A stretch of 35,390 bases of DNA from Bacillota bacterium (GTDB lineage Bacteria > Bacillota > Sulfobacillia > JAJYWN01 > JAJZPE01). The stretch lies in the NCBI GenBank assembly GCA_021787335.1, contig JAJYMC010000014.1, positions 1 to 35,390 of the forward strand, given 5' to 3'. Numbering within the stretch: the first letter of the stretch is position 1; every line of letters begins with the position of its first letter. The notes beneath the pieces are model-generated. The model was not told the DNA's origin, did no database searches, and saw nothing but the letters and a program-made list of their open reading frames with translations. Shown piece after piece: positions 17,504 through 35,390 of the stretch. Made by a program: the position numbers and the translations under genes.

Positions 17504-17716
17504 TCCCGGTATAGCTGCCTGGTTTGGGTGTCAAAACGAAAGCGGGTCAGGAGGCCCACCCCCGTTCACCTTGGCCCGAAGGTTGATCATCGGTGTGTTT
17601 GCTAACATAAGAGTTGACCACTGAAGCCACAAACGCTCACAAGAAAGTTGACCACCCTGAGCCCTTATCCTGTACGCTAGGAGTTGTACGACTCTGGCGG
17701 ACAGGAGGAAAGGTTG

Positions 17717-18670
17717 ATGCTCAGGATGGTCGATAAAGAGTATATCCGAAAGAAGCATTTTGTTGAAGGGTGGTCAATCCACCGTATCAGCCGTCAGTGT
17801 GAGGTTTCAAGGCAAACGGTCCGCAAGTGTCTGAAAGACGCATGCATTCCCCGCTATACGTTGTCAAGGTCGCGGCCCGCACCGGTGATGGGAAAGTGGC
17901 TGCCGGTCATCGAGCAGTGGCTGAAAGAGGACCGGACCCGGCCGCGGAAGCAGCGCCACACAGCCAAGAGGATTCATGATCGGTTGGTCGAGGAGTTTCC
18001 CGGCGAGTTCATCGGGGCGGAGTCGACCGTCCGCCGGGTGGTGCGACAGCTACGGGGTCAGCTTGTGAGGCCGGAGGCCTTCGTGCCACTGGTTTCCGAG
18101 CCTGGGGAACTCGGGCAGGTGGACTTTCAGGAGTCCAAGCTGGCTCTGGTGACGTGCGACCGCAACCGCTACTCGGTCCCGTCGAACCTGGTTGGGCAAA
18201 CGGTACGACTTGACGTGTATTCCGACCGCATCGAGGTGTATCACCGGAGCGCCCTGGTTGCCAGGCACACGCGGCTTACCGGCCGCGGTGGCATGGCCAC
18301 GGACTTCAGGCACTATCTCGACGTGGTGGCGTTCAAGCGCCGGACCTCGATGGAGGCGGCCTTTGTGGACGGGATGCCGGCCGTTTATAAGACAGCCCGG
18401 GAGAAGCTGCGCTTACGGGACCGTGGCTATCGGGAGTTCGCCGGGATTCTGGCCTTGAACCGGGAATGGCCCGCCGAGGCCGTCGAGACGGCCCTGGCCA
18501 AAGCGATAGAGGCTGACCGTCTGACCGTCGAAGCGGTGCGCCAACTGATTCTGGCCGACTTTACGCCTCAGCGCGTACCCGTGACGGTGCCGGCGGCGAT
18601 CGCCGTGACCCTGACCCCACCCAACCTAAGACGCTATGACCGGCTGGCGAAGGGGGCGGCAGGTTCGTGA
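17717..18670 (+). CDS. istA: IS21 transposase IstA lacking its catalytic core
   Basis: A 317-residue IstA; full members have about 400-500 residues. The N-terminal helix-turn-helix (IHRISRQCEVSRQTVRKCLK) is intact. Next comes the start of the DDE domain, GELGQVDFQE, with the first catalytic Asp. The sequence then jumps straight to SKLALVTCDRNRYSVPSNLV, which belongs to the C-terminal domain. The part that should carry the second Asp and the Glu (about 170 residues by comparison with the other IstA at 27958-29172) is absent, in frame. The protein can probably bind DNA but cannot cut or join it. The ATG at 17717 has AGGAGGAA 8 bases upstream. Confidence 0.85.
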   Translation: MLRMVDKEYIRKKHFVEGWSIHRISRQCEVSRQTVRKCLKDACIPRYTLSRSRPAPVMGKWLPVIEQWLKEDRTRPRKQRHTAKRIHDRLVEEFPGEFIGAESTVRRVVRQLRGQLVRPEAFVPLVSEPGELGQVDFQESKLALVTCDRNRYSVPSNLVGQTVRLDVYSDRIEVYHRSALVARHTRLTGRGGMATDFRHYLDVVAFKRRTSMEAAFVDGMPAVYKTAREKLRLRDRGYREFAGILALNREWPAEAVETALAKAIEADRLTVEAVRQLILADFTPQRVPVTVPAAIAVTLTPPNLRRYDRLAKGAAGS

Positions 18671-19416
18671 CCGACCCGCGCGAGGCGCTCCTCGACAATT
18701 ACCTGCGGGACCTGAAGATGCCTGGACTCAAGCGGACTTACCGTTCACTCGCCCGTGAGGCTTTCGAGCAGAGCAAGCACCCGCTAGACTTCCTCTCCGC
18801 CTGCCTGGCCACGGAGGCCGACTCCCGACGGGAGCACCGGCTACAGGCCCACCTGCGCTCGGCCCGATTCCCGATGGTGAAGACCCTTGATGCCTTCGAT
18901 TTCTCAGCCATTCCGAGCCTTCCCAAGCCCAAAGTGCTGGACCTGGCCCGCGGTGAGTTCATCCGGGCCAAGGAAGACGTCGTCTGCCTCGGCGGTTCCG
19001 GCACCGGCAAGACGCACATCGCCATCGCCATCGGGCTCACGGCCATTGCGGCAGGTTACCGGGTTCGCTTCATTCAGGCCATCACCCTGGCCCAGGAGCT
19101 GTTGCAGGCGCAGCAGGAATACCGGCTGCCCAAGTACCTGAAGGCTTGGCAGAGTGTCGATCTGGTGATCGCCGACGAGCTTGGATATCTTGGCCTGGGT
19201 CCCGGCGGCCCGCTCCTCTTCCAGTTCTGCGCGGACCGCTACGAACGAGGCAGCCTCTTGATAACCAGCAACCTCGAGTTCTCGCGCTGGGGGGAGGTGT
19301 TCGGCGATGCCACCCTGACAAGCGCGCTGCTTGACCGGCTCACGCACCACTCAACCGTCCTCGTCTTTGACGGCGAGTCCTACCGCTTCCGCGAAAGCCA
19401 GCGCCGCCGAATTTAG
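18667..19416 (+). CDS. istB: IS21 helper ATPase IstB
   Basis: AAA+ ATPase of 249 residues, the normal length, that controls target choice by IstA. It has Walker A GGSGTGKTHIAIAIG, Walker B LVIADELGYL, sensor-like SLLITSNLEFSRWGEVFGD, and the family end LLDRLTHHSTVLVFDGESYR. The GTG at 18667 overlaps the istA stop (GTGA). It appears intact although its partner is not, so the element would depend on another IS21 transposase to move. Confidence 0.92.
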   Translation: MTDPREALLDNYLRDLKMPGLKRTYRSLAREAFEQSKHPLDFLSACLATEADSRREHRLQAHLRSARFPMVKTLDAFDFSAIPSLPKPKVLDLARGEFIRAKEDVVCLGGSGTGKTHIAIAIGLTAIAAGYRVRFIQAITLAQELLQAQQEYRLPKYLKAWQSVDLVIADELGYLGLGPGGPLLFQFCADRYERGSLLITSNLEFSRWGEVFGDATLTSALLDRLTHHSTVLVFDGESYRFRESQRRRI

Positions 19417-24275: not shown

Positions 24276-25079
24276 TCACGGGCTTGTGCCCATGCCCGTG
24301 ATGTGATAGTCGGTGCCGGCGCCCTCCATGTCTACAAAGAAGGTCTTTTTCAGGATCCAGCCGTCGGGTCCTATCTGGCCGTTCCCGGCCATCCAGCCAC
24401 TCTTGCTGGCCGGGAGGACCGAGAACTCGACATAGAAGGTCAGCCGCCCGGTGGCCGGCCATTCATACTCGAACTTGACCGTGTCGATGTGGTAGTCTAT
24501 CAGGCGGCTGCTCTCATCCACCCCGGCGGACTTGAGGTCTCGCAGGTACTCGTCGATGAGGTTCCGACAGATGTTGGCAAGCTCCGCGACGTTGGAAGGC
24601 GTCGGGGGCTGAACCTTCTCCTCCTTGATCGGCATGCCGACGAGCTTGGGTTGGCCGCCAGCCTCCCCCACCTCGTAGACCTCAACCTGCTCCGTCCCGG
24701 CGAAGGTGGCGACGAAAGTCGGGATTGGCCTGACGCCATCAGTGGCGGCGTCTTCCGGCAGCCTGCGGTTCTCGAGCAATAGCCGCCAGGTGCCTTGATC
24801 GTAATCGGCGTTCATGAGGTCCACCATATAGCCGGCGGTGGTCTGTTCCCCCATGCTCACGAGCAGGACCTTGTCACCGCCGTAGAGGCCGTCGAGGCCG
24901 ATAACCGCCCTTTTGTCCTTGGCCTTCACCGCGACCCATACGTTGGTCACCACGTTCAAACCGTAGCTTCCCGTCGCGAAGAAATGAACGCCGTCCTGCG
25001 GCTGAGGGCGAGGCAACTCCTGAGACAGTCGGTAGGTCAGTCCCTTGTAAGATGACATATAAGTTTGCGCTGGTGACAC
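24276..25079 (-). CDS. Protein with a PrcB-like domain, probably 5'-truncated
   Basis: About 267 residues. The block KVLLVSMGEQTTAGYMVDL and the following strand pattern resemble the PrcB C-terminal domain (consensus like LVSLGExPTGGY), found in exported proteins and in an accessory subunit of a spirochaete protease. The C-terminal half (LIDYHIDTVKFEYEWPATGR, then a WILKKTFFVD end) is unknown. The frame opens at GTG 25079 directly after a TGA, without a ribosome site, and there is no signal peptide although this family is normally exported. I infer that the 5' part is lost or frameshifted; a second frame (VSVTSANLYVILQGTDL) overlaps the start. Confidence 0.5.
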   Translation of the reverse strand: MSPAQTYMSSYKGLTYRLSQELPRPQPQDGVHFFATGSYGLNVVTNVWVAVKAKDKRAVIGLDGLYGGDKVLLVSMGEQTTAGYMVDLMNADYDQGTWRLLLENRRLPEDAATDGVRPIPTFVATFAGTEQVEVYEVGEAGGQPKLVGMPIKEEKVQPPTPSNVAELANICRNLIDEYLRDLKSAGVDESSRLIDYHIDTVKFEYEWPATGRLTFYVEFSVLPASKSGWMAGNGQIGPDGWILKKTFFVDMEGAGTDYHITGMGTSP

Positions 25080-25258
25080 TCACGCTTGCGCCGCGGACAT
25101 CTAGACTTGCATTGTCTGCCCGTCAGGGGGGTATGGGGGTGTACGGCGATGCCACTAGCGCAGAGACAATTGAGCTGTCATCCGTAACATGCTCCAATCG
25201 TCTAGGGGTGTCTCGACGATAGGGGCGGCCGTCTAGCTCCCGACGCTCGGAGAAAAGC

Positions 25259-25285
25259 AGAGGGGCCGCTTCATGGCGGCCCTCT
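25259..25285. terminator. Hairpin in the 25080-25482 gap
   Basis: AGAGGGGCCGC and GCGGCCCTCT form a stem of about 10 pairs (one bulged G) with a 6-base loop; the minus strand continues GCTTTTCT. It could terminate minus-strand transcription. No gene is convincing between 25080 and 25482. Confidence 0.4.
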
Positions 25286-25387
25286 TGCTGGTTGTCAGAT
25301 TCCACATAAGCTCGCATTTTGGACACCGAGCTCCGCGCCACGGACGCATATCTCCACATCTTATGCCCATAAGGGGGTATAGGCATT

Positions 25388-25420
25388 GAGAGACCACGGC
25401 ATTCTTCACCGTGGTCTCTC
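25388..25420 (-). terminator. 12-pair hairpin downstream of the 108-residue gene
   Basis: GAGAGACCACGG and CCGTGGTCTCTC pair perfectly around a 9-base loop, 63 bases past the stop at 25483. No T-run follows on either strand (AATGCC on minus). Its place at the end of the small operon suggests a terminator. Confidence 0.5.
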
Positions 25421-25482
25421 CACTGTAGTCTGGGTGTCTTCCCCTTAGGTGAGGGCCGAGATTTCACAAGGGCCTGGGTGGG

Positions 25483-25809
25483 TCAGCGACTCCGCCTGGC
25501 AAACCAGTGGGCGAGCTCATCCACGACCCTTACGAGCTCGATTTTGTCGTCGGCCGACAGCCGTTCAGCTTTGATGAGCCACTTACCACGGCCGGTGGGG
25601 TCTTCTGTGTCGGTCGTGTCCATAAGCCCCTTGAGTACGGTCACCCAGAGCCTGGCATTGTCGTCTAGGTCCTCAGGCCTAACGTCAAGAAGGCCTAGAT
25701 GGCACTCGTGAAAGGCCATAGCAATGTCCTCTGCCTCGTGTGAAGGGGAAGGCAGCATGAGGTTGCGCCGAGCCGTGGAGAACTTCTCTGAAGGGTAGCT
25801 AAAATCCAT
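25483..25809 (-). CDS. Unknown 108-residue protein
   Basis: A well-formed small gene: AAAGG lies 10 bases before ATG 25809. The protein starts MDFSYPSEKFSTARRNLMLP and contains FHECHLGLLDV, LDDNARLWVTVLKGLMDTT and a C-terminal VRVVDELAHWFARR. It is mostly helical and acidic, without membrane segments or signal peptide. I do not recognise the family. It follows a 57-residue ORF by 24 bases on the same strand, so the two are probably an operon. Its AT-richer, full-alphabet composition differs from the GC-driven shadow frames, supporting real coding. Confidence 0.65.
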   Translation of the reverse strand: MDFSYPSEKFSTARRNLMLPSPSHEAEDIAMAFHECHLGLLDVRPEDLDDNARLWVTVLKGLMDTTDTEDPTGRGKWLIKAERLSADDKIELVRVVDELAHWFARRSR

Positions 25810-25833
25810 GAGATCACAACCTTTCTCATTGTC

Positions 25834-26007
25834 TCAGTCTCGTGATGACCCCGCGGATCCGGATTCCGCGGGGTCATCTGCATGACTAAGGCCGGGACTC
25901 CCCAAGAAGCCATATAGTGGAACCCAAGAATCGCTTCCCAGTTCATGCTCTATGAATCGTAGCCAATCGGGCATTAAAAGGTCTCTTAAATCTCCATGCT
26001 TAATCAC
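25834..26007 (-). CDS. Possible 57-residue small protein
   Basis: GTG 26007 follows GGGGGGACG at 6-7 bases. The frame begins VIKHGDLRDLLMPDWLRFIE, continues HELGSDSWVPLYGFLGSPGL and ends in a small-residue tail (ADDPAESGSAGSS). The first 40 residues look like a genuine globular sequence (two Trp, mixed charge). The tail is encoded by a long palindrome (25844-25878), so the original protein may have ended earlier or the palindrome may have inserted in frame. It is followed 24 bases later by the 108-residue gene. The function is unknown. Confidence 0.45.
   Translation of the reverse strand: MIKHGDLRDLLMPDWLRFIEHELGSDSWVPLYGFLGSPGLSHADDPAESGSAGSSRD
25844..25878. repeat. Long perfect palindrome
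   Basis: GATGACCCCGCGG pairs with CCGCGGGGTCATC (13 pairs) around a 9-base centre that itself contains ATCCGGAT. It lies within the end of the 57-residue ORF and 35 bases before the next gene, so it could be an internal terminator/processing hairpin or an operator. Confidence 0.7.
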
Positions 26008-26056
26008 AGATCGTCCCCCCGAATAAGGCTGCTATTACCAGGCCCTCGTGAGCATG

Positions 26057-26095
26057 GCCAAAAACGCCGCTACCTCTTTTTGGGGTGCGGCGTTT
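26057..26095 (-). terminator. Intrinsic terminator of the HNH/HTH operon
   Basis: On the minus strand AAACGCCGC pairs with GCGGCGTTT (9 pairs, 16-base loop), and the stem ends in five Ts before GGCC. It lies 54 bases after the HTH gene stop. Confidence 0.65.
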
Positions 26096-26148
26096 AGTCT
26101 GCGTGCCTCTTATATCTTTTTGTCTTCGACGAGCAATGGCCAAGTCCT

Positions 26149-26457
26149 TCAACTGCGAGCTGGTTTTCGGGCATTCTGCGGGCGCTCCCCCCAAACGCCT
26201 TTCCTCTTTAGCGCAAAAACGTCGGACTCCAGAAGGAGAGACTCCTTTGCCACCCCGGGGCCGGGGACGGGTTCGAGTTCGCCTCTAGCTATCAGTCCTC
26301 TGATTTTCTGCGAAGGGCACCCCAGAACCTTGGCCGCCTTCGGCACCGAATACGCTTGGCTTAGCTTAATGAGATCGGCCTTCCGGAAGAGGGCTCGCCG
26401 CCCGATTGAGAACACTGGTGTAATCCGCCCTTGGCGGACCCAACGATCAAGCGACAT
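26149..26457 (-). CDS. Helix-turn-helix protein (excisionase/MerR-like)
   Basis: A 102-residue protein with two DNA-binding-like pieces. The start, SLDRWVRQGRITPVFSIGRR, looks like the recognition helix and wing of a helix-turn-helix. A second unit, YSVPKAAKVLGCPSQKIRGL followed by IARGELEPV, is more complete. The first unit lacks its opening helix. A neighbouring frame just upstream reads ASKEKAFEAAIEVRQSL, which could be that helix, so a frameshift near 26460 is possible. No clear ribosome site precedes ATG 26457. It lies 92 bases after the HNH gene on the same strand and before a terminator; a regulator of that operon is a reasonable guess. Confidence 0.6.
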   Translation of the reverse strand: MSLDRWVRQGRITPVFSIGRRALFRKADLIKLSQAYSVPKAAKVLGCPSQKIRGLIARGELEPVPGPGVAKESLLLESDVFALKRKGVWGERPQNARKPARS

Positions 26458-26549
26458 AGGGACTGGCGCACCTCAATCGCCGCTTCAAATGCCTTCTCTT
26501 TGGAGGCTGGCGTCCCAAACGCATTAGCTAGGCGTCCGCGAGGAGCCGG

Positions 26550-27539
26550 CTATGAAGGACTGAGTCCGGAATCAAAGTGGAAGTCGCGTGTTGCCCTAGC
26601 GACCCTGAACTCTTCAAGTCCAGGGTACGGATGTTCTTGGGTCAGCTCTTCTGGTGTATATTCAACGCGATGACGTCGAATTGAAAGGTCCTCCCCGTAC
26701 GGGCCGGACTGCGCAATTAAGGCACCCTCACTAATCCTGAACGTCGGATCTATTGTGTGACGGACTATATCGCAAACATGGTTGGCTGCCCGCGTGAGCT
26801 CAAGCGTCAGGTCCTGTACGAGTGCAACGTGGTACTCGTATTCGCTATGCAGCCTTGCATAAAGGGCGGGGTCCCAACGGTCGATTTTGTAGAAGGCATC
26901 TGTTAACGCCCTTCCATTCTGCCAGTAAATCGAGTGGCTTTTGAACTGGAACAGCAGATCTTTCAGAACGAAGGCGAAATTCTCGAAAGCGGCCCTTAGG
27001 TTAGGGTATTCTTTTGGCCATATCCTTTTAAACAACCAGTCGAACAACCTTTCAAGCCTTTCGACATCGGACTTTGTGGTCTCTGGACGCTCAGCAAGCA
27101 TGTAGGAGGTCCAAGCTTCCCATCCATTAAGCCGCCCATCTGTTACCCATTTCTCAACGTAGTCTGCAAGAAGCTCTCGGGCGGCTTGTCTTTCACTGTC
27201 AAAGCCGTCGAGGGATTGCCTGACCCATTTCTCGTGCTGGCTCTTAAGGTCTTTGAGCTTATCAACCGTGAAAGTGTTAACCTGGTCATCGACGACCTTA
27301 TGGTGGTTTCTGCATAGCAGGATCAGGTTGCTGTACTTGTTCCGAAGTTCTATGGGCATAGAAGTGTTTCCCCGGGGACCATCTGGCTCTTCAGCCACTA
27401 TGTGACATACTTCTCCCACCATAGACTCATCATCGGTCAGCGTGCTGTCCTGAACGAGCTCCATTCTGCATACCGCGCATCTATTGGCTGCACGCCCCCA
27501 TAGCATAGTTCTTGTCTTCGTTGAAACATCGGCACGCAA
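26550..27539 (-). CDS. HNH endonuclease with unknown C-terminal domain
   Basis: A 329-residue protein. Residues 10-110 form an HNH nuclease domain: RCAVC (Cys21, Cys24), EVCHIVAEEPDGPRGN with catalytic-type His46, and NLILLCRNHHKVVDD (Asn71, Cys76, His80). The motif arrangement resembles the HNH domains of defence nucleases such as the CBASS effector Cap5, but residues 115-329 are helical and do not look like SAVED. The C-terminus is rich in Trp and aromatic residues (WEAWTSYML, FDWLFKRIW, HSIYWQNGRAL). It likely cuts DNA when its C-terminal domain receives a signal; that is inference. The start is TTG at 27539 after GGGGGGT. It follows a 37-codon ORF by one base and a truncated gene, on the same strand. 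Confidence 0.82.
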   Translation of the reverse strand: MRADVSTKTRTMLWGRAANRCAVCRMELVQDSTLTDDESMVGEVCHIVAEEPDGPRGNTSMPIELRNKYSNLILLCRNHHKVVDDQVNTFTVDKLKDLKSQHEKWVRQSLDGFDSERQAARELLADYVEKWVTDGRLNGWEAWTSYMLAERPETTKSDVERLERLFDWLFKRIWPKEYPNLRAAFENFAFVLKDLLFQFKSHSIYWQNGRALTDAFYKIDRWDPALYARLHSEYEYHVALVQDLTLELTRAANHVCDIVRHTIDPTFRISEGALIAQSGPYGEDLSIRRHRVEYTPEELTQEHPYPGLEEFRVARATRDFHFDSGLSPS

Positions 27540-27540
27540 A

Positions 27541-27654
27541 TTAGTACCCCCCGAGTGCCCGTCTTGCTAAAGCTAGAGGTAACCGACCCTCATCTGCGAC
27601 CACTCTGCCGCGCCCATTGGGTGTTCCATTCCTTGTAACCTTCCATAATCTCAT
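27541..27654 (-). CDS. Possible 37-residue small protein before the HNH gene
   Basis: ATG 27654 opens a frame beginning MRLWKVTRNGTPNGRGRVVA and ending in ARRALGGY. Its TAA stop is one base from the HNH TTG start, so the two would be translationally coupled. It starts 13 bases after the stop of the truncated gene upstream. The protein is basic, with no family that I recognise. The ribosome site is weak. It is supported mainly by the packing of the three frames. Confidence 0.35.
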   Translation of the reverse strand: MRLWKVTRNGTPNGRGRVVADEGRLPLALARRALGGY

Positions 27655-27667
27655 GGCCTATGCGAGT

Positions 27668-27837
27668 CTAGACAGCTCTAAAGAATTCCGCGACCTCGTT
27701 GAAGACCTCACGAACGCCCGGCCTCACACTGAGCTTCAAGACTGCGGTTTGGACCTCAGGCGGCGTAAAACCGGACATCCACAGGAGTGAAGGGACGGGG
27801 CCAGCGCCCTTCCGTCTCTGCATGGCCGACGAATAGA
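27668..27837 (-). pseudogene. 3' remnant of a gene cut by the second IS21 element
   Basis: A frame enters from the IS21 left end at 27838 and ends at TAG 27668. From the internal Met at 27823 it reads 51 residues, including GPVPSLLWMSGFTPPEVQTA and VREVFNEVAEFFRAV. The end looks like an ordinary amphipathic helix, not GC-driven shadow. No start or ribosome site is left, so the gene's 5' part was lost on insertion. Its position suggests it was the first gene of the HNH operon. No family recognised. Confidence 0.45.
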
Positions 27838-27957
27838 TGTCAGGGCCGATGGTAAAATCCCCATAACGGCCGAATGAAAAATCCCCACCCCCCGTCGAAT
27901 TGAGGCACCAAAACCTTAGCCAGGTGGAGGTGCCTACAAACGTTAGGGGGCAGGGAA

Positions 27958-29172
27958 GTGGATAGACTCATCGAGATGCGAGAGCGCGGTATGAGCATCA
28001 GCGCCATCGCCAGGGAGATCGAGTGCGACCGAAAGACAGTCCGTAAGTGGCTCAGTGAAGGTAGATTCCGGCCTAAGAAGCTAGGGCCGCGGCGGTCTGG
28101 CAAGCTGGACCAACACAAAGAGTATATCATGCGCCGACTCGGCGAGGGAGTCTTCAATACCGCGGTCCTATTGAGGGAGCTAAGAGCCCAGGGGTATCTG
28201 GGCGGCCGCAGCATCCTCAAGGATTTCGTTTCCCCCTTCCGGCAACAGCGCCAGGTGCAGGCGACGGTCCGCTTCGAGACCCCGCCCGGCGAGCAGGTCC
28301 AGATGGACTGGGGCGAGTGCGGGGAGCTTGAGGAGGACGGTGTGTCGCGGAAGGTCTACTGCTTCTCACTGGTCCTCGGCTACTCCCGGATGCTTTACGC
28401 TGAGTTCGTGACCCAGCGGGACGTGGACACCATGATCGGATGCGTCCTGCGGGGCTTCAAATACTTCGGCGGGCTGCCAAAGACCATCCTGACGGACAAC
28501 ATGAGCCAGGTCACCCCGGGCCGGGACGCCGACGAGCAGCCCCGGTGGAACCAGCGGTTCCTCGACTTCACCCGGCACTACGGGCTCACCGTTCGGCTCT
28601 GTCGGTTCAGGCGGCCCGCCACGAAGGGCAAGATCGAGTCTGGTGTCGGGTACGTCAAGGGGAACTTCCTGCCCGGGGTACGCGAGGTCTTCTCCCTCGC
28701 CGACCTGAACGCCCAGCTCCGGGCCTGGCTTGCGGACACCGCCAATTGCCGGGTCCATGGCACGACCCACGAGCTGCCCATCCGCCGCCTGCCCGATGAA
28801 CACCTCCGGCCACTCACCGGTGTGCCCGAGTTCGACACGGCAAAACACCTGCGGCGGCGGGTTAGCCGGGACTGCTACGTGGACGTCGAGACCAACCGCT
28901 ATTCCGTCCCGTGGATCCACGCCGGCCGGGACGTCACGGTGAGAATTGCGTCCGAGGGCCTCCTGGAGGTCCTCTGGGACGGGACGTCGATCGCCCGCCA
29001 CCAGGTCGTCGCTGGGCGCTACCAGCTCGTCACCGACCCCAGGCACTTCGAGGGGTTGCCGATGGGTGAAAGCCGGCCGGTGAACCGGTTCAGGCTTCCC
29101 GTGGCGGCACCGTCCGTTGAGGTCCGGCCACTATCGGCCTATGAGGCCCTGGCGGAGGTGGGTGACCGGTGA
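27958..29172 (+). CDS. istA: IS21 transposase IstA
   Basis: A full-length IstA of 404 residues. The N-terminal helix-turn-helix reads MSISAIAREIECDRKTVRKW. The DDE core is complete: first Asp in EQVQMDWGEC, second in TILTDNMSQV, Glu in KGKIESGVGYVKG. The C-terminal domain has VETNRYSVPW. The start is GTG at 27958, after GCAGGGAA. It should be able to catalyse transposition with the IstB beside it. There is no sign of decay, in contrast to the IstA at 17717-18670. Confidence 0.93.
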   Translation: MDRLIEMRERGMSISAIAREIECDRKTVRKWLSEGRFRPKKLGPRRSGKLDQHKEYIMRRLGEGVFNTAVLLRELRAQGYLGGRSILKDFVSPFRQQRQVQATVRFETPPGEQVQMDWGECGELEEDGVSRKVYCFSLVLGYSRMLYAEFVTQRDVDTMIGCVLRGFKYFGGLPKTILTDNMSQVTPGRDADEQPRWNQRFLDFTRHYGLTVRLCRFRRPATKGKIESGVGYVKGNFLPGVREVFSLADLNAQLRAWLADTANCRVHGTTHELPIRRLPDEHLRPLTGVPEFDTAKHLRRRVSRDCYVDVETNRYSVPWIHAGRDVTVRIASEGLLEVLWDGTSIARHQVVAGRYQLVTDPRHFEGLPMGESRPVNRFRLPVAAPSVEVRPLSAYEALAEVGDR

Positions 29173-29960
29173 TCGAGCTCACCAGGGTCCGCGAAGGCCT
29201 GGAGTTCCTTGGCCTGAATGAGATGGCCGCGGTGCTCGACAGCAGGCTGGAGGCGGCGGCCCAGAAAGACAAGACGTACCTTGAGTTCCTCACCGACCTG
29301 GTGGACTCTGAGTTGGCCGTCCGCCGGGAGCGTTACCTCAAGACCAGAACCAGGCTCGCCCACCTGCCGTTCCACAAGACCCTTGAGCAGTTCGACTTCT
29401 CGTTCCAGCCATCCATCGACGACCGGCAGATCCGGGAACTGAGTACGCTCAGGTTTGCCTATGACGCCTCGAACGTGATCTTCCTCGGCCCGCCGGGAGT
29501 GGGCAAGACCCATCTCGCCGTGGCCCTGGGGGTTGAAGCCATCCGCCAGGGGCTGGGCGTCTACTTCATCACCGCCCACGACCTGGTGAACGACCTCAGG
29601 CGGGCCTGGGCCGAGAACCGGCTGGAGCGGCGGATGCGGGTCTACCTGGCTCCCAGGGTCCTGATCATCGACGAGATGGGGTATCTCCCGATGGACGACG
29701 CCGGGGCGACGATCTTCTTCCAGCTCGTCTCGGCCCGCTATGAGCGCGGCTCGATCGTCCTGACCTCCAACAAGAGCTTCGGCGACTGGGGCACCATCTT
29801 CGGGGACGCCATCATCGCCACGGCCATCCTGGACCGCCTGCTGCACCACTCGACCACGGTGAACATCCGGGGCGAGAGCTACAGGCTCCGGGAGAAGAAA
29901 CGGGCCGGGCTCTTCAACCCGTCCAAGACCATTCAGGAGGTGCCGCCGGCTGCCAACTGA
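29169..29960 (+). CDS. istB: IS21 helper ATPase IstB
   Basis: AAA+ ATPase of 263 residues. It has Walker A GPPGVGKTHLAVALG, Walker B VLIIDEMGYLPMDD, sensor SIVLTSNKSFGDWGTIFGD and the family end LLHHSTTVNIRGESYRLREK. The start codon overlaps the istA stop (GTGA). It appears intact. Confidence 0.94.
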   Translation: MIELTRVREGLEFLGLNEMAAVLDSRLEAAAQKDKTYLEFLTDLVDSELAVRRERYLKTRTRLAHLPFHKTLEQFDFSFQPSIDDRQIRELSTLRFAYDASNVIFLGPPGVGKTHLAVALGVEAIRQGLGVYFITAHDLVNDLRRAWAENRLERRMRVYLAPRVLIIDEMGYLPMDDAGATIFFQLVSARYERGSIVLTSNKSFGDWGTIFGDAIIATAILDRLLHHSTTVNIRGESYRLREKKRAGLFNPSKTIQEVPPAAN

Positions 29961-30048
29961 GGCCCGGGGTGGGGAATTTGAAACCGGCTAAACTGGGGAT
30001 TTTCAAACCGGCCTTGACACCCGGGCCGGTTCCGTTGAGAGACACCGA

Positions 30049-30088
30049 ATGGTCCTTGCAGCTCCCGGAGCTGGGGCGAAAGGACCAT
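30049..30088 (+). promoter_or_regulatory. Hairpin enclosing the ribosome site of the 59-residue ORF
   Basis: ATGGTCCTT (30049-30057) pairs perfectly with AAGGACCAT (30080-30088), which contains the ribosome site and the first two bases of the ATG at 30087. An inner AGCTCC/GGAGCT pair sits in the loop. In RNA the start would be hidden, so translation may be switched. Structure seen, role inferred. Confidence 0.5.
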
Positions 30089-30266
30089 GGTAAACTCCAA
30101 GGCCTCTCCCGTCCAAAGCCAAGCCGCGAGTCTCGATTGGCGGACTCTGGAGCTTGGGCACCTGGACGGGGAGAATCTCCGGAGAGAGGAAGGGTTCTGC
30201 GCGAAGCTGGCCGAGATCGTGAGAAGATCCCAGGCACAAAAAAAGAAAGCAGAAAAGGCCAGCTAA
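30087..30266 (+). CDS. Possible 59-residue small protein
   Basis: ATG 30087 follows AAAGGACC. The frame begins MVNSKASPVQSQAASLDWRT, continues LELGHLDGENLRREEGFCAK and ends in a lysine-rich helix (RRSQAQKKKAEKAS) before TAA. The composition looks like real protein (amphipathic helix, charged tail). There is no recognised family. It is the first ORF after the IS21 right end and precedes the recombinase genes by about 340 bases. It could be a small DNA-binding or regulatory factor; I cannot say more. Confidence 0.45.
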   Translation: MVNSKASPVQSQAASLDWRTLELGHLDGENLRREEGFCAKLAEIVRRSQAQKKKAEKAS

Positions 30267-30607
30267 GAAGACCACGCCGCGGGGCGGCCGGCCCTGACGG
30301 CAAAATCGAATAGGCGGGACCAACCAATAGTGATCCGAATGTTCCGCGAACACTTCCTGAACGCGCATGTTGAAAAGCCCTATAAGGAAGCGTTCCTGTC
30401 CCGAAGACGATCCACCGGGGACACCAAGAGCAAGACCCGTCCGACAGTTCCTATGACCGAAGACGTCCGTTCGAAGAGAGTTGCCGCGTGTAATGCCCGC
30501 CCTTAGGAATCGAAGAAGCCCCGGTTGGTCCCGCCAGAGTCCCATCCAAAGGGAAGTCCCCGCCCCTGTACCAGTCCCTCACCAAGATCACAAGGAGGAG
30601 CCGATAG
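30267..30607 (+). other. Leader region of the recombinase genes
   Basis: A 341-base gap. A 58-codon frame (GTG 30330 to TAG 30506; IRMFREHFLNAHVEKPYKEA onward) is possible but has no ribosome site, so I do not call it. The region ends in AAGGAGGAG just before the next ATG. No terminator or clear promoter is seen. Confidence 0.4.
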
Positions 30608-31015
30608 ATGGTTCAGGATGGAGACAAGATTACAGCCGCTGCCTACGTGCGGGTCGCCCCAGGCGATGACCTTGGCGAACGTAAGGCGGAGATCCAGCGC
30701 GCAGTCATCAGGAAATACGCTGCTCGGAGGGGACTAATCATCCCGGACGAGTACTGGTTCATCGACGAGTGTAGCGGACTAAAAGGAGACCGCCCAGGCC
30801 TGCAGCAGGTTCTTCGCCTTTCGAGAGAAAGGAAGATCCAAGCCGTGCTTGTGTCGCACTTGAGCGCGCTCCACAGATACGTCCCCACGCTGATTCGAGT
30901 CATCCGTGCCCTCGACAAGGACGGAGTGGAGGTTGTACCGATTTTGGAGGGTCCTGTCCTTGATGCCTTCTTAGATGCCTTCTCACGCGCCGCCGGAGGA
31001 AGCCTGGCCGTATGA
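30608..31015 (+). CDS. Serine-recombinase domain protein without the catalytic serine
   Basis: A 135-residue protein consisting only of a resolvase-type catalytic fold: AAYVRVAPGDD (12-22), a helix, FIDECSGLKGDRPGLQQVL, AVLVSHLSALHRY and VRALDKDGVEVV-like strands. In active enzymes the first motif is Y-x-R-V-S; here the serine is Ala17, and the later RLSRLxR-type arginines are replaced by SHLSALHRY. The R-P-G-L motif is kept. It has no DNA-binding domain. It cannot cut DNA as known enzymes do, but could dimerise with the full recombinase encoded directly after it. The ribosome site AAGGAGGAG is strong, and its TGA overlaps the next ATG (ATGATG). Confidence 0.72.
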   Translation: MVQDGDKITAAAYVRVAPGDDLGERKAEIQRAVIRKYAARRGLIIPDEYWFIDECSGLKGDRPGLQQVLRLSRERKIQAVLVSHLSALHRYVPTLIRVIRALDKDGVEVVPILEGPVLDAFLDAFSRAAGGSLAV

Positions 31016-32934
31016 TGTCCCCAACGCCCATGCCTCCCGCCGGCTACGGCGGGAGGCATGCCGCCTTGGGCAGCCACTTGGGTCCAATCATGGCGGCAGG
31101 GTACATCAGGGTATCGAGGGACAAGGCCAAGCACGGACTCGTTGACGAGATCATCTCCCCGGAAATGCAGAGGGCAGAGATTCTCAGGTATGCGGAATCC
31201 CACAAATATCAAGTGCCCGATAACTTTATCTTCGAAGACCTAGACAAGTCCGGATTCAACATTCCTTTTGAGAAGCGCCCGGGCTTGATGCAGATCATCC
31301 GGTTGGCTGAACAGGGCCTGATCCAGCACGTCATCACCTACAAGATCAGCCGGCTGTCAAGGGTTCTACTTGACACTCTGCAGATAACTAAACTTCTTAG
31401 CACCAAGGGGATCTCGGTGATCTTCATCAATGAAGGCATCGATTCCGGCAACCACGGCCACAAAATCGTGCTGGCCACGCTCGGAGCCGTGGCCGAGAGC
31501 CAGGCCGAAGAGATCCGCAATTACGCGATAAGCATCAAAGCTCACCAGGCAGAACAAGGCATCGTTCCAGGCTGCGTCGCACCCTACGGCTTGGTGCGCA
31601 AGAACAAGGTCTTTGATAAGAATCCAGAGACCTTTCCTCACCTCAAGAGGATGTTCGATATGGTGGCCTCGGGCCAGACGCCGTACCGGGTGCGGAAGGT
31701 CTTCAACTCGGAGGGCATCAAGTCGCCGCGGGGCAAACAATGGTCGGATGAGGTCATGCGCGACCTCATTCGGAACCCCACCTACATAGGCCAGTTCAGA
31801 TTCAAGAAGGAAGTGTGCGAGGCGAGGCACAAACCCTTTCTGCCCAAAGACCTGTGGCTACGAGCCAACGACCAGTTGGCTCTCAGAGCGAACCACCAGG
31901 ACAGCAGAAGGCACCGGATGCTCAGCGGCCTCATCACCTGCGGCCAATGCGGGTCTCCCTTCAACGTCCATCATGGGGGCGGCCACGCCAGGCGCGTCGG
32001 ATATCAGTGCCGGAACCGGTTCGAGACGGGGTGCCCGTCTCCCCGGCTGGACGCTCCGACACTCGAAGCCGCGCTGAAGTCCAAGCTAAGGGAGCTTGCT
32101 CTTAACAAGGCGGTTCTCCAGCGAGTGGCGGAAAAACTCGAAAAGGAGGCATCGCGCCCGCTCAGCCCAATCCTGGCGGACCGCGATAGGCTCAACACCA
32201 AGCTCAAGAAGGTTCAAGACAAGATTGAGCTGCTGTTGAGGGACCGCTACGACGGCCGGATTGCCGACGATCAATTCGCCGAAAAGAATCACCAGTTTCT
32301 TTCCGAGAGGGACGAGCTCAAGGCCAAGCTGGACAGGATTGAGGCGCAGGTGGAGAACCCCCGGCGCAAAGTCGAACGCCACCAGAACCTCACGGCCATC
32401 CTTCAAGAGGTAGCTCAGGCCTGGGACTCGTTCAGCGATGAGGACATTCAAGATCTCCTCAGGGAGCTCGGGGTCATCCTGGTCGCGGAAAAGGACGGGG
32501 TTGTTTTCGAGGCCCTCGGATACAAGGACAAGCTTCCCGGCAAGGCCACCATCAGCACTCTCTACTTCGAGCAGTTCGTCGACGGCTTGGGAAAGGAAAG
32601 AGGATTCTGGAGCCAGGCCCAGGAGCAGTTTCTCCTCCGAAACTGGGAACGCCACGACGCCCGGTGGATCGCCAAGAAGCTCAAGCGAACGGAGAGCGGC
32701 GTACGGCAAAAGCTCTACACCTTAAGGCAAAGCGGCCAAATCTCCTTCAGGAAAAGGCCCGGCGGCGGGCTCCCGGATCCGGAGCGACCCGAAGTCCCAG
32801 AACCGAACCCCAGAGCGAAAGGAGGTGAAAGCGCCGATGGGGGAGGGACTCAACGACTCCCGAATCACGGTTCATCCCCGTCCTCGCCGCCCATCGAGTT
32901 CTCCCGGAACCACCACGGCCATCATCAGGACTGA
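31012..32934 (+). CDS. Large serine recombinase
   Basis: A site-specific recombinase of 640 residues (614 if started at ATG 31090). The catalytic domain opens MAAGYIRVSRDK (Ser in RVS), then DLDKSGFNIPFEKRPGL, YKISRLSRVLLDT and the long helix ESQAEEIRNYAISIKAHQ. The recombinase domain has IVPGCVAPYGLVRKN and LIRNPTYIGQFRF. The zinc ribbon has ITCGQCGSPF (Cys284/287 in the shorter numbering) and a CRNRFETGC pair. A coiled coil and a C-terminal Myb-like helix-turn-helix (NWERHDARWIAKKLKRTESG) follow. ATG 31012 is coupled to the preceding stop with GGAGGAAG upstream. ATG 31090 fits the domain start but has no ribosome site and follows a strong hairpin. It probably drives excision or integration of a mobile element; the att sites were not found. 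Confidence 0.92.
   Translation: MMSPTPMPPAGYGGRHAALGSHLGPIMAAGYIRVSRDKAKHGLVDEIISPEMQRAEILRYAESHKYQVPDNFIFEDLDKSGFNIPFEKRPGLMQIIRLAEQGLIQHVITYKISRLSRVLLDTLQITKLLSTKGISVIFINEGIDSGNHGHKIVLATLGAVAESQAEEIRNYAISIKAHQAEQGIVPGCVAPYGLVRKNKVFDKNPETFPHLKRMFDMVASGQTPYRVRKVFNSEGIKSPRGKQWSDEVMRDLIRNPTYIGQFRFKKEVCEARHKPFLPKDLWLRANDQLALRANHQDSRRHRMLSGLITCGQCGSPFNVHHGGGHARRVGYQCRNRFETGCPSPRLDAPTLEAALKSKLRELALNKAVLQRVAEKLEKEASRPLSPILADRDRLNTKLKKVQDKIELLLRDRYDGRIADDQFAEKNHQFLSERDELKAKLDRIEAQVENPRRKVERHQNLTAILQEVAQAWDSFSDEDIQDLLRELGVILVAEKDGVVFEALGYKDKLPGKATISTLYFEQFVDGLGKERGFWSQAQEQFLLRNWERHDARWIAKKLKRTESGVRQKLYTLRQSGQISFRKRPGGGLPDPERPEVPEPNPRAKGGESADGGGTQRLPNHGSSPSSPPIEFSRNHHGHHQD
31029..31060 (+). repeat. 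14-pair perfect hairpin at the start of the recombinase gene
   Basis: CATGCCTCCCGCCG and CGGCGGGAGGCATG pair perfectly around GCTA. It lies between the two possible start codons of the large recombinase. It may be an inserted palindromic element, a translation-control hairpin or a site bound by the recombinases. Confidence 0.75.
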
Positions 32935-33133
32935 GAAGGGGGGTGTGGTCGCCTTGACGGGTGTGCCCAATACGGGTCTGTCCCGCCTGACCAAAGCCGT
33001 GAGCGCGGCCGGGGCAGAACTCCTTTGTTGGGGCTCCCTTGAGGGTATCGGGAAAGCTGTAAAAGAGTGCTCGATCTTCAGCCTCATCGATGCCCCCAAT
33101 TGGCTGGAGACGTTGCTGAAGTCGGAACGTTAG
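32837..33133 (+). CDS. Unknown 98-residue protein
   Basis: ATG 32837 lies 8 bases after GGAGGTGA, a strong ribosome site inside the 3' end of the recombinase gene, so it overlaps that gene by 98 bases. The N-terminal 35 residues are Arg/Pro/Ser/Thr-rich. A compact part then follows: VVALTGVPNTGLSRLTKAVS, GAELLCWGSLEGIGKAVK and a C-terminal LIDAPNWLETLLKSER. I do not recognise it. Tight coupling to the recombinase suggests a helper such as a directionality factor, but no DNA-binding motif is obvious. The following 293 bases (33134-33426) hold no gene that I can support. Confidence 0.6.
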   Translation: MGEGLNDSRITVHPRPRRPSSSPGTTTAIIRTEKGGVVALTGVPNTGLSRLTKAVSAAGAELLCWGSLEGIGKAVKECSIFSLIDAPNWLETLLKSER

Positions 33134-33426
33134 GCCCGTCGGCCGTCTTGCGACACTCGTACAGCCCGCAAACGTTTCTTGAAACGAGTCTCTACTTCGA
33201 GTTGTGGCGTGGCCCACATAGCGAGAACCGAAATAAGTCCGCGAAACAGACCCAAAACCTACCGGAAATCGACCGTCCAGCCCGGGGAACGAGCGTGCGA
33301 CGAATTCCCGGGGCCGAGCGCTGGAGCGCGAGGCCCCAGGCCTCCCTCGGCACCTTCGGGCCATGTGCCTGACCAGGCCGCCCCGGGGCGACAGAGACTT
33401 GCCGTAGGAGAAAGGAGGGAAGGGAA

Positions 33427-33954
33427 ATGGACGAAAGATATCCAAGACGCCGTTACGAAGACCTTAGGAAGAAGAAAGATTCCGGGATCCCCTTGGACTT
33501 CGGGGCTCTGACAACAGAGGAGCTGCGGGAGCTAAGGCGAGGGGCTTCGATCGAGGAAATCGCCCAACTCTATGACGTCAGCCTTACTGCTGTATTGCGC
33601 AAGGAGGCCGGTCTCACGACCAAGACCGAAATAGAGCAATTAATGGAGTCGACAGTCGAGTACTTTGAGTGGGCCAGGTCAAAGACGCTTCCGGAAGGCA
33701 CACTCTACAACGCCCTCAAAGCGCGGAAAGAGGCTGGTGAAAAGCTCAACTGGCGGGAGATAACAGAAGAGGAGCTATTCACCCTTAGGGAAGAAGCCAC
33801 CTGCAAACAGATTGGCGATCTCTTCGGAGTCTGCGCCGGAACCGTAACACGGAAATGCACCGAGTATGGGATTAACATGCATGGAGTATTCGTTGCAGGA
33901 GTGCTGGCCACTTTCCGTCGAAAGCTCAAAGAGACAGGGGACAGCTGCCCTTGA
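33427..33954 (+). CDS. Protein with two copies of a helix-turn-helix unit
   Basis: A 175-residue protein made of an internal duplication. Copy 1 (about 9-63) includes YEDLRKKKDSG, LTTEELRELRRGASIEEIAQ and LYDVSLTAVLRKEAGL. Copy 2 (about 93-149) includes YNALKARKEAG, ITEEELFTLREEATCKQIGD and LFGVCAGTVTRKCTEYGI. Each ends in a helix-turn-helix pattern (IxxLYxVSxxxV-like). The ribosome site AAAGGAGGGAAGG is strong. It is the last plus-strand gene before a terminator, so it probably belongs to the recombinase module as a DNA-binding regulator. No family name is known to me. Confidence 0.7.
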   Translation: MDERYPRRRYEDLRKKKDSGIPLDFGALTTEELRELRRGASIEEIAQLYDVSLTAVLRKEAGLTTKTEIEQLMESTVEYFEWARSKTLPEGTLYNALKARKEAGEKLNWREITEEELFTLREEATCKQIGDLFGVCAGTVTRKCTEYGINMHGVFVAGVLATFRRKLKETGDSCP

Positions 33955-33990
33955 GGGAAGGCCGGCAGTCCAACACTGGCAGGGAATGAT

Positions 33991-34020
33991 GGCGCGCCCG
34001 AGACTAGGCTCGGGCGCGCC
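33991..34020 (+). terminator. Terminator-like hairpin closing the recombinase module
   Basis: GGCGCGCCCGAG pairs perfectly with CTCGGGCGCGCC (12 pairs, 6-base loop), followed by GTCCCTTTG. It starts 36 bases after the stop of the duplicated helix-turn-helix gene. The T-run is short. Confidence 0.6.
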
Positions 34021-34244
34021 GTCCCTTTGTGGACGTGAACTCAGAGAGTGGTTGGGAGCGAGCAAGTCTTCGGGGCCGCGGTAATGTGCTCAGAGTGGGG
34101 CATCCGGGACCGAGACAAAGAAACTCGTGATGCGGTGGCTGCTTTGGATCTTGACGAAGGGCTCAGCGGCGCTGATGCAAGGCAAGTAAAGTATGGACCG
34201 ACAGCGTTTGCGCTCCCAGCTACATTGCAGCACTGGAATGAAGA

Positions 34245-34272
34245 AGGCGCTGCGTCCTCAGACGCAGCGCCT
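34245..34272 (-). terminator. Intrinsic terminator of the last two minus-strand genes
   Basis: AGGCGCTGCGTC pairs perfectly with GACGCAGCGCCT (12 pairs, 4-base loop). On the minus strand it is followed by TCTTCATT. It lies 75 bases past the stop at 34347. The 34021-34244 stretch between the two terminators holds no gene that I can support. Confidence 0.7.
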
Positions 34273-34346
34273 GTATGCGATTTTCTTGGTTCTTGGGCCT
34301 CAGAGAACCCCGGCTCCGTTTAGCGGACCACCTTTGGGCGGCGGTT

Positions 34347-34877
34347 CTAGTCACGTGACTCATCAGTGATCTCGATGCTCCGGGACCACCACGTATAGGC
34401 GTCGTTAAGGGGCAAAGACGGGGCATCGGGGTCGAAGGAGGAGAGCGGGACCAGAGTGACGAGGCACATCCCTACTCGTGAGAGCAGTTCATCCATCATC
34501 GCATACTGGTCTGCCGCGTCGTCAGCGATTGCCCCATGCATCAGGAGCGGTCGGGAATCCACCGGGTCCAAGACCTCTAGCCCTACCGCCACGGTAGTCC
34601 GATTCAAGAGCGACAGGTGTATCTTGAAATTGATCACCGAGCCGTCCTCATCGCGGACAACGTGTTCCGAGACCAACTTACCGACACTTTCGAGTCTGTC
34701 GTCTGGGTAATACATTACGAGGGCCGGGATCACGGGGCCGCAGGGGAAACTCACGATTCCGAAGGTTGTCTGAAGCTCGTCAGGTCTATAGGCTCTCGGG
34801 AAAGGGGGCCATCTGGTCACTCGGGTCACGTAGATTCCTCGCGGTTTGCTTGTGCAGGGACTCATGTGTTCACTCAA
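34347..34877 (-). CDS. Unknown 176-residue protein
   Basis: The frame begins TTG 34877, 10 bases after AGGAG, four bases past the upstream stop. ATG 34865 is an alternative, giving 172 residues. The protein has blocks such as TTFGIVSFPCGPVIPALVMY, NFKIHLSLLNRTTVAVGLEV and SRVGMCLVTLVPLSSFDPDA, with strands suggesting a beta-rich fold. It has no signal peptide, membrane span or motif that I recognise. It forms a two-gene unit with the gene at 34881 and ends before a clear terminator. Confidence 0.6.
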   Translation of the reverse strand: MSEHMSPCTSKPRGIYVTRVTRWPPFPRAYRPDELQTTFGIVSFPCGPVIPALVMYYPDDRLESVGKLVSEHVVRDEDGSVINFKIHLSLLNRTTVAVGLEVLDPVDSRPLLMHGAIADDAADQYAMMDELLSRVGMCLVTLVPLSSFDPDAPSLPLNDAYTWWSRSIEITDESRD

Positions 34878-34880
34878 GTC

Positions 34881-35375
34881 TCAGCCACTCCTTCTGCCGA
34901 CGTATGTCAGATAATTTGTGAGCGCACTTCTTAAGGACCGAGCGGCCTCAAGGAAGTCCTTGTCCTGGCGGACGACCTCCTCGATCCGTGCCGGCGCAGA
35001 CATCAACCTTCCATCGGCCGCGAGACACGTCCAAGCCTTGGGCTGGGGCAGCGATCGCCTAAAGAGCTTGACGAACGCTTTATCGTGAAGAATGACCCTG
35101 AATCCTCCATACGGGGTTCGGCCGTCATCTGGTTTCTCCCAGAACCGGTCGATCAGGATCAGGCCGGCGACTGGTAAGAAGGCTGGGGAATGGCCCTGGC
35201 GGATCGTCAGGAGGCTCTCTACTTTTGCGCGGCTCACCACATCGCAGGCCTCGCGGACCAGCTCGACTCGGCGCTCTTGCGGCAGGCCTTGCCCAGTCCT
35301 GATTATCTCGGCGAGGTCGGCCAGGGTGTTCTCGGCGTCAAGGGCGAGTCTGGCGCGGTCTCTGCCGATGGTCAT
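34881..35375 (-). CDS. Unknown protein, possibly continuing past the window
   Basis: From ATG 35375 the frame gives 164 residues: helical at the start (RARLALDAENTLADLAEIIR), then a compact middle (SLLTIRQGHSPAFLPVAGLI, FRVILHDKAFVKLF) and a helical end (FLEAARSLRSALTNYLTYVG). The ribosome site before 35375 is weak and the frame stays open to the window edge, so the true start may lie outside. There is no recognised family. It is coupled to the gene at 34347, whose start lies four bases after this stop. Confidence 0.6.
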   Translation of the reverse strand: MTIGRDRARLALDAENTLADLAEIIRTGQGLPQERRVELVREACDVVSRAKVESLLTIRQGHSPAFLPVAGLILIDRFWEKPDDGRTPYGGFRVILHDKAFVKLFRRSLPQPKAWTCLAADGRLMSAPARIEEVVRQDKDFLEAARSLRSALTNYLTYVGRRSG

Positions 35376-35390
35376 CCAGGGATCCGTGAC

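Follow-up and report, generated by a model that had tools for sequence, protein, structure and literature searches.

A serine-less resolvase-domain protein encoded directly upstream of a large serine recombinase, and its parallels in clostridial loci

The window analysed here is a stretch of 35,390 nucleotides from a Bacillota genome. Near its downstream end lie two co-oriented genes of the serine recombinase family (Table 1), the first encoding a 135-residue resolvase-domain protein, P0001, and the second a large serine recombinase (LSR), P0002. The Shine-Dalgarno sequence of P0001 is strong and stands ~8 nt ahead of the ATG, and the GC contents of the three codon positions (0.68/0.43/0.64) are of coding type for the present sequence. 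P0001 is probably expressed. The initial annotation had also placed two further genes with good ribosome-binding sites in this module, and both were recovered downstream, one starting at ATG 32837 of the ORF that ends at 33133, the other at 33427. An IS21-family element lies just upstream and is not part of the module; a second istA/istB pair of the IS21 type occurs in the window at 17684-19416.

Table 1. Features of the P0001-P0002 locus, in window coordinates
Feature	Position	Strand	Basis
IS21-family element istA/istB, imperfect 54-nt terminal inverted repeats	27838..30019	+	domains, repeats
Shine-Dalgarno AAGGAGGA of P0001	30592..30599	+	sequence
P0001, serine-dead resolvase-domain protein, 135 aa	30608..31015	+	ORF, Pfam, alignment, AF2 model
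GGAGGAA, Shine-Dalgarno-like, before upstream LSR start	30995..31001	+	sequence
ATGA, upstream candidate LSR start overlapping P0001 stop (TGA)	31012..31015	+	sequence
P0002, LSR, 640 aa, catalytic residues intact	31012..32934	+	domains, motifs, homologue alignment
Perfect 13-bp hairpin, GCTA loop, between both candidate LSR starts	31030..31059	+	sequence, RNA folding
Small ORF, no significant family, overlaps LSR 3′ end, Shine-Dalgarno AAGGAGGTGAA	32837..33133	+	ORF, Pfam search
175-aa ORF, Shine-Dalgarno AAAGGAGGGAAGGG, two helix-turn-helix-like halves (HTH_23, 2.6e-5), candidate regulator	33427..33954	+	Pfam

Positions 25056-35390 gave no DNA match in genomes G001-G003 apart from IS21 sequence and short fragments, indicating that the region is accessory. 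Neither the element boundaries of the P0001 module nor an alignable empty site was found. The end of the window at 35390 adjoins a run of N (a scaffold gap, L092 10392-10401), and the far side of the module is perhaps not truly contiguous. Past the window, at L092 15400-18020 (contig ~40400-43020), genes for a cytosine methyltransferase, a possible restriction enzyme and a Vsr-like protein were recognised by eye; all three may be cargo carried by this accessory region.

The Pfam Resolvase family (PF00239) matched residues 10-114 of P0001 with E = 3.8e-16. This was the sole domain found: the PF07508 Recombinase domain, zinc ribbon and coiled coil that mark an LSR are missing and, as had been stated at the outset, P0001 contains no DNA-binding domain. 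The nucleophile position (S10) is occupied by Ala17-Pro18, exactly the replacement first reported. The first serine comes no earlier than residue 56, so the nucleophile could not be rescued by a shifted alignment. An alignment of P0001 with 59 active, non-redundant serine recombinases contained seven columns invariant in the active set, the serine column by construction, since serine defined the set. P0001 changes exactly two of the seven, S10 and R68 (A87), and keeps Y6, R8 (R15), Q, R45 (R62) and R71 (R90), together with the SG/RPGL core; these two positions were also the only changes among the 14 columns that active enzymes conserve most strongly. D67 is also replaced, by Ser, but this is no lesion because the active neighbour P0002 has Ser at the same position. 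The earlier statement that the RLSR-type arginines are lacking is thus correct for the first of them, whereas the second is kept, as are R8 and R45. Without the nucleophilic serine and R68, one of the four arginines of an active enzyme, P0001 is, judged by its sequence, a real, catalytically dead and truncated serine recombinase catalytic domain.

Retention of the resolvase fold, also claimed initially, was borne out by structure prediction. An AlphaFold2 model computed from a 79-sequence alignment (mean pLDDT 87.4, pTM 0.79) comprises the alpha/beta catalytic core and, C-terminal to it, only one short helix (residues 116-129). Its best structural match was the catalytic domain of an IS607-like TnpA (6dgc, Z = 17.4, 1.2 Å over 101 residues), and the TP901-1 integrase catalytic domain (3bvp) gave Z = 15.7. 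Both the significant family match and the matching model place P0001 in the PF00239 fold. The C-terminal stretch, however, is ~14 residues long in P0001 against ~36 in P0002, and we take the longer stretch to be αE, the helix that mediates dimerisation in serine recombinases. Most of αE is missing in P0001, a point that the initial annotation had not raised. Dimerisation with the live LSR, the mechanism suggested there, is therefore not the obvious expectation in its canonical form, and the shortened helix would disfavour it; docking on the LSR by the core surface would be possible.

P0002 is the complete LSR that had been described. It carries Resolvase (PF00239), Recombinase (PF07508) and zinc-ribbon domains, and its RVS and SRLSR motifs are intact. 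Its best NCBIfam matches, CcrB and XisF, fell far below cutoff. The nearest relative is the LSR of a same-family genome (G002), which is 42% identical and aligns from ATG 31090. The C-terminus of P0002 (32590-32745) carries a conserved extension past the coiled coil (W-S-x-A-Q ... NW..HDA.WIA...RTE.GVRQK), also present in the G002 homologue; it looks like an extra helix-turn-helix and has no Pfam family match.

Two starts are candidates for P0002. The start at 31012 has a Shine-Dalgarno sequence and overlaps the P0001 stop, while that at 31090 has homology and no Shine-Dalgarno sequence. The overlap, which had been given as a fact, is uncertain since it depends on the upstream start and homology begins at the downstream one; from the sequence the ATGA overlap is likely but not certain. 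The 126-nt region around the hairpin that lies between the two starts folds 3.5 SD better than shuffles (z = −3.5). The hairpin is unique in the genome, and a genomic repeat was thereby ruled out. It could be that the reading frame matters here and not the protein, with P0001 serving as a leader cistron whose translation controls how accessible the LSR start is near the hairpin. The ATGA overlap, the strength of the hairpin and the lack of a Shine-Dalgarno sequence at ATG 31090 would all fit such a leader, but a conserved 105-residue catalytic fold would be superfluous for it, the hairpin is known from one sequence, and in clostridial loci of similar design (below) a spacer of 170-260 nt that holds another ORF separates the companion gene from the LSR. 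We consider this reading very unlikely.

No close homologue of P0001 was found in 84,980 GTDB genomes, IMG/VR, phages, plasmids and ~500 relatives. Phages, plasmids, 101 relatives and 398 genomes of the phylum yielded only generic matches of 27-43% identity, and NCBIfam gave only weak matches to the dead proteins (YneB-like, IS607, CcrB). The flanks read around six related LSRs (G002, G093, G439, G141, G469 and G328) contained no resolvase-domain ORF, nor did an LSR-profile search of GTDB contigs and IMG/VR return any LSR relative with a partner, the GTDB loci returned being distant. A conserved pairing had been envisaged for this locus, and the six LSRs without a partner count against it in P0002's own lineage.

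Two further serine-less resolvase domains were encountered in these searches. One (L003, G000:C39:18745-19032) is a second such ORF in the same genome, with a YVRTG motif and 216 aa, and resembles a leftover from a different LSR lineage. The other (L010, G041:C11, motif YARVA) continues at its C-terminus into an HTH_17 DNA-binding domain and may be a recombinase-derived regulator. Both were rejected as LSR companions, as there was no LSR within the ~1.5-kb flanks examined.

Among the weak matches from the phylum were serine-dead, domain-only proteins of YCRIDAPED, YCRVANGDPE, YCRVA/D-x-x-DD and YCRIDKGGN types (all fetched loci were profiled), the first of them at ~20 loci, and IMG/VR supplied more loci of this kind. 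In total, over 20 clostridial and viral-contig loci carry a serine-lacking domain directly upstream of an LSR. The name clostridial is our reading of their sequences and record sources, and the bacteria concerned are of gut type. The recurrence of serine-lacking homologues upstream of LSRs, which the initial annotation had proposed to look for, therefore holds for the architecture but not for direct homologues of P0001. Genes of the YCRIDAPED and YCRVANGDPE types lie 170-260 nt upstream of the LSR on the same strand, and those of the YCRVA/D-x-x-DD and YCRIDKGGN types overlap an LSR 3′ end. Of 39 serine-dead small ORFs, 31 had a co-oriented LSR no more than 500 nt away, compared with 2 of 42 serine-intact ones (Fisher p = 1e-12, a value that overstates the case, as most of the 31 are related, one clade dominates and the loci are not phylogenetically independent).

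Constraint was measured on the RIDAPED group. Across 20 loci the motif was nearly invariant and the median dN/dS was 0.14, showing purifying selection; these are therefore functional genes and not wrecks. Their module consists, in order, of the dead domain, a small ORF, LSR-A, a ~295-aa DNA-binding-only LSR fragment and LSR-B. The small ORF between the dead gene and LSR-A encodes 53 aa and has its own Shine-Dalgarno sequence (L135:1885-2138, L101:6675-6921); one of these two matched SHOCT_2 (7.8e-18) and the other had no family match. The ~295-aa protein between the LSRs (L097:3202-4101, minus strand; L101:8534-9409, plus strand) has the LSR Recombinase and zinc-ribbon domains and no catalytic domain, and in terms of its domains it is the complement of the dead catalytic-domain protein. 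A model of one clostridial dead protein (pLDDT 90.8) showed the same elements as P0001, with the last helix at 116-130 compared with 116-129. No description of a serine-less LSR companion was found in the open-access literature of PMC.

The resemblance raises the question of whether P0001 is a divergent member of the clostridial serine-dead family, with one origin and the family's function. In both, the site of serine replacement falls in a Y-x-R-[VI]-[AD]-x-x-D segment, and length, C-terminal truncation and position upstream of an LSR are the same. In a maximum-likelihood tree from which catalytic columns had been removed, however, P0001 grouped with P0002 and the LSRs of G002 and G093 (support 100/89, on 94 columns only), and a quick tree agreed on this placement with its own LSR lineage (support 88). 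The closest sequence to P0001 was likewise its neighbour P0002 (34%) and not a clostridial member, also with catalytic columns masked, and a SHOCT-like ORF and a DNA-binding-only LSR gene are absent beside P0001. When P0001 was constrained to the clostridial companion clade, the log-likelihood fell by only 5.1 units, and the AU test did not reject this arrangement (p = 0.30). A simple identification with the clostridial family is thus neither supported by the best tree nor rejected, and we regard common origin as unlikely. Between P0001 and P0002 synonymous sites are saturated and 48% of non-synonymous sites differ, figures that span the whole history of the pair and not only the time after serine loss; the saturation indicates that the split is old. 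P0001 is probably an old tandem offshoot of the N-terminal domain of its own LSR lineage, and its likeness to the clostridial companions probably arose by convergence. Because the tree places P0001 with its own LSR, the constraint measured on those companions does not carry over to it.

We propose that P0001 is coupled to the LSR in translation and modulates it without catalytic activity, in convergence with the clostridial companions, an explanation to which we give an even chance. The N-terminal domain of the LSR lineage would have been duplicated long ago, and the product would have been retained for this modulating role; it and the active LSR could be translated from one transcript. P0001 cannot cut and has no DNA-binding domain, so it would act only through partners; the sole partner encoded with it is P0002, whose catalytic domain it resembles. 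It would dock on that domain and limit or direct synapsis, as an inhibitor or a directionality helper. Expression of P0001, binding to the LSR and an effect on recombination are what we infer from this arrangement.

P0001 may instead be a decaying remnant, a duplicated LSR N-terminal domain that has lost its C-terminal domains and active site and has not yet acquired a stop. Its grouping with the neighbouring LSR lineage (100/89) suits this reading, as do its occurrence in one genome, with no conserved homologue or pairing at related LSR loci, and its position next to an IS21 element, within accessory DNA that the nearest genomes do not have. Solitary serine-less resolvase ORFs, moreover, do occur: the flanks read around L003 of the same genome and around L010 hold no LSR. 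Other features speak against a remnant: the ORF is intact, with a strong Shine-Dalgarno sequence and a possible overlap with the LSR start, its losses are two catalytic residues with the other conserved core positions kept, and its fold is predicted at high confidence. When ORF drift was simulated at 0.1 substitutions per site, the frame survived intact in ~1% of cases, so the survival odds of a drifting ORF are low. We hold decay, the main rival, to be possible though somewhat doubtful. Together with the clostridial parallel, the intact ORF, strong Shine-Dalgarno sequence, catalytic-only losses, good fold and low drift odds put the case for a function of P0001 at about one half. The P0001 copy alone is a weak case, and the clostridial family is the stronger result.

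More broadly, and as a tentative proposal, dead truncated recombinase domains may be a recurrent class of LSR control proteins that arose independently from different LSR lineages. In clostridial mobile elements they would belong to a machine of four parts, the dead catalytic domain, an LSR, a DNA-binding-only LSR and a second LSR, that governs whether, and in which direction, the element moves. The serine-dead companion arrangement may thus represent an overlooked control of mobile DNA; a conserved serine-dead partner of resolvase fold beside an LSR is a candidate for control of tandem LSR modules, and such a partner could be a handle for switching LSRs in genome engineering.

With the PF00239 domains of the TP901-1 integrase N-domain, TnpX, gamma-delta resolvase and IS607 TnpA, P0001 has in common the fold, the residues Y, R8, Q, R45 and R71, and the SG/RPGL core; unlike these active enzymes it lacks the nucleophilic serine, R68, a full αE and a DNA-binding domain. 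Control of LSRs is largely known for phage integrases, which have unrelated recombination directionality factors (RDFs), and less so for the tandem LSR modules of ICE-like elements. We know of no RDF with a resolvase fold. Known RDFs limit or direct synapsis by binding LSR regions other than the one proposed here. The RDF gp3 of phiC31 is reported to bind the integrase zinc domain (PMC5814800). RDFs of this kind, as small non-catalytic proteins acting on LSRs, would be functional analogues of the role proposed for P0001. Streptococcal ICEs carry serine integrase triplets, described as all having the catalytic serine and PF07508 (PMC4701971); like the P0001 module, these are tandem co-oriented serine recombinase genes forming one integration module, but the passages on them make no mention of a serine-dead, domain-only partner. 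CcrA/CcrB of SCCmec, and XisF with XisH/XisI, are LSRs that work with a second protein, as proposed for P0002. Unlike P0001, CcrA and CcrB are each an active recombinase of full length, and XisH and XisI are XisF accessories unrelated to resolvases. The clostridial RIDAPED companions (L098, L101, L135 and others) differ from P0001 in being conserved across many genomes, in mostly retaining R68 and in forming a separate clade in the best tree, and downstream of their genes come a small SHOCT-like ORF and then two LSRs with a DNA-binding-only LSR fragment between them, whereas P0001 is without such an ORF or fragment. What they share with P0001 is the absence of the serine, a similar size (~125 aa), the truncation, the fold and the position upstream of an LSR.
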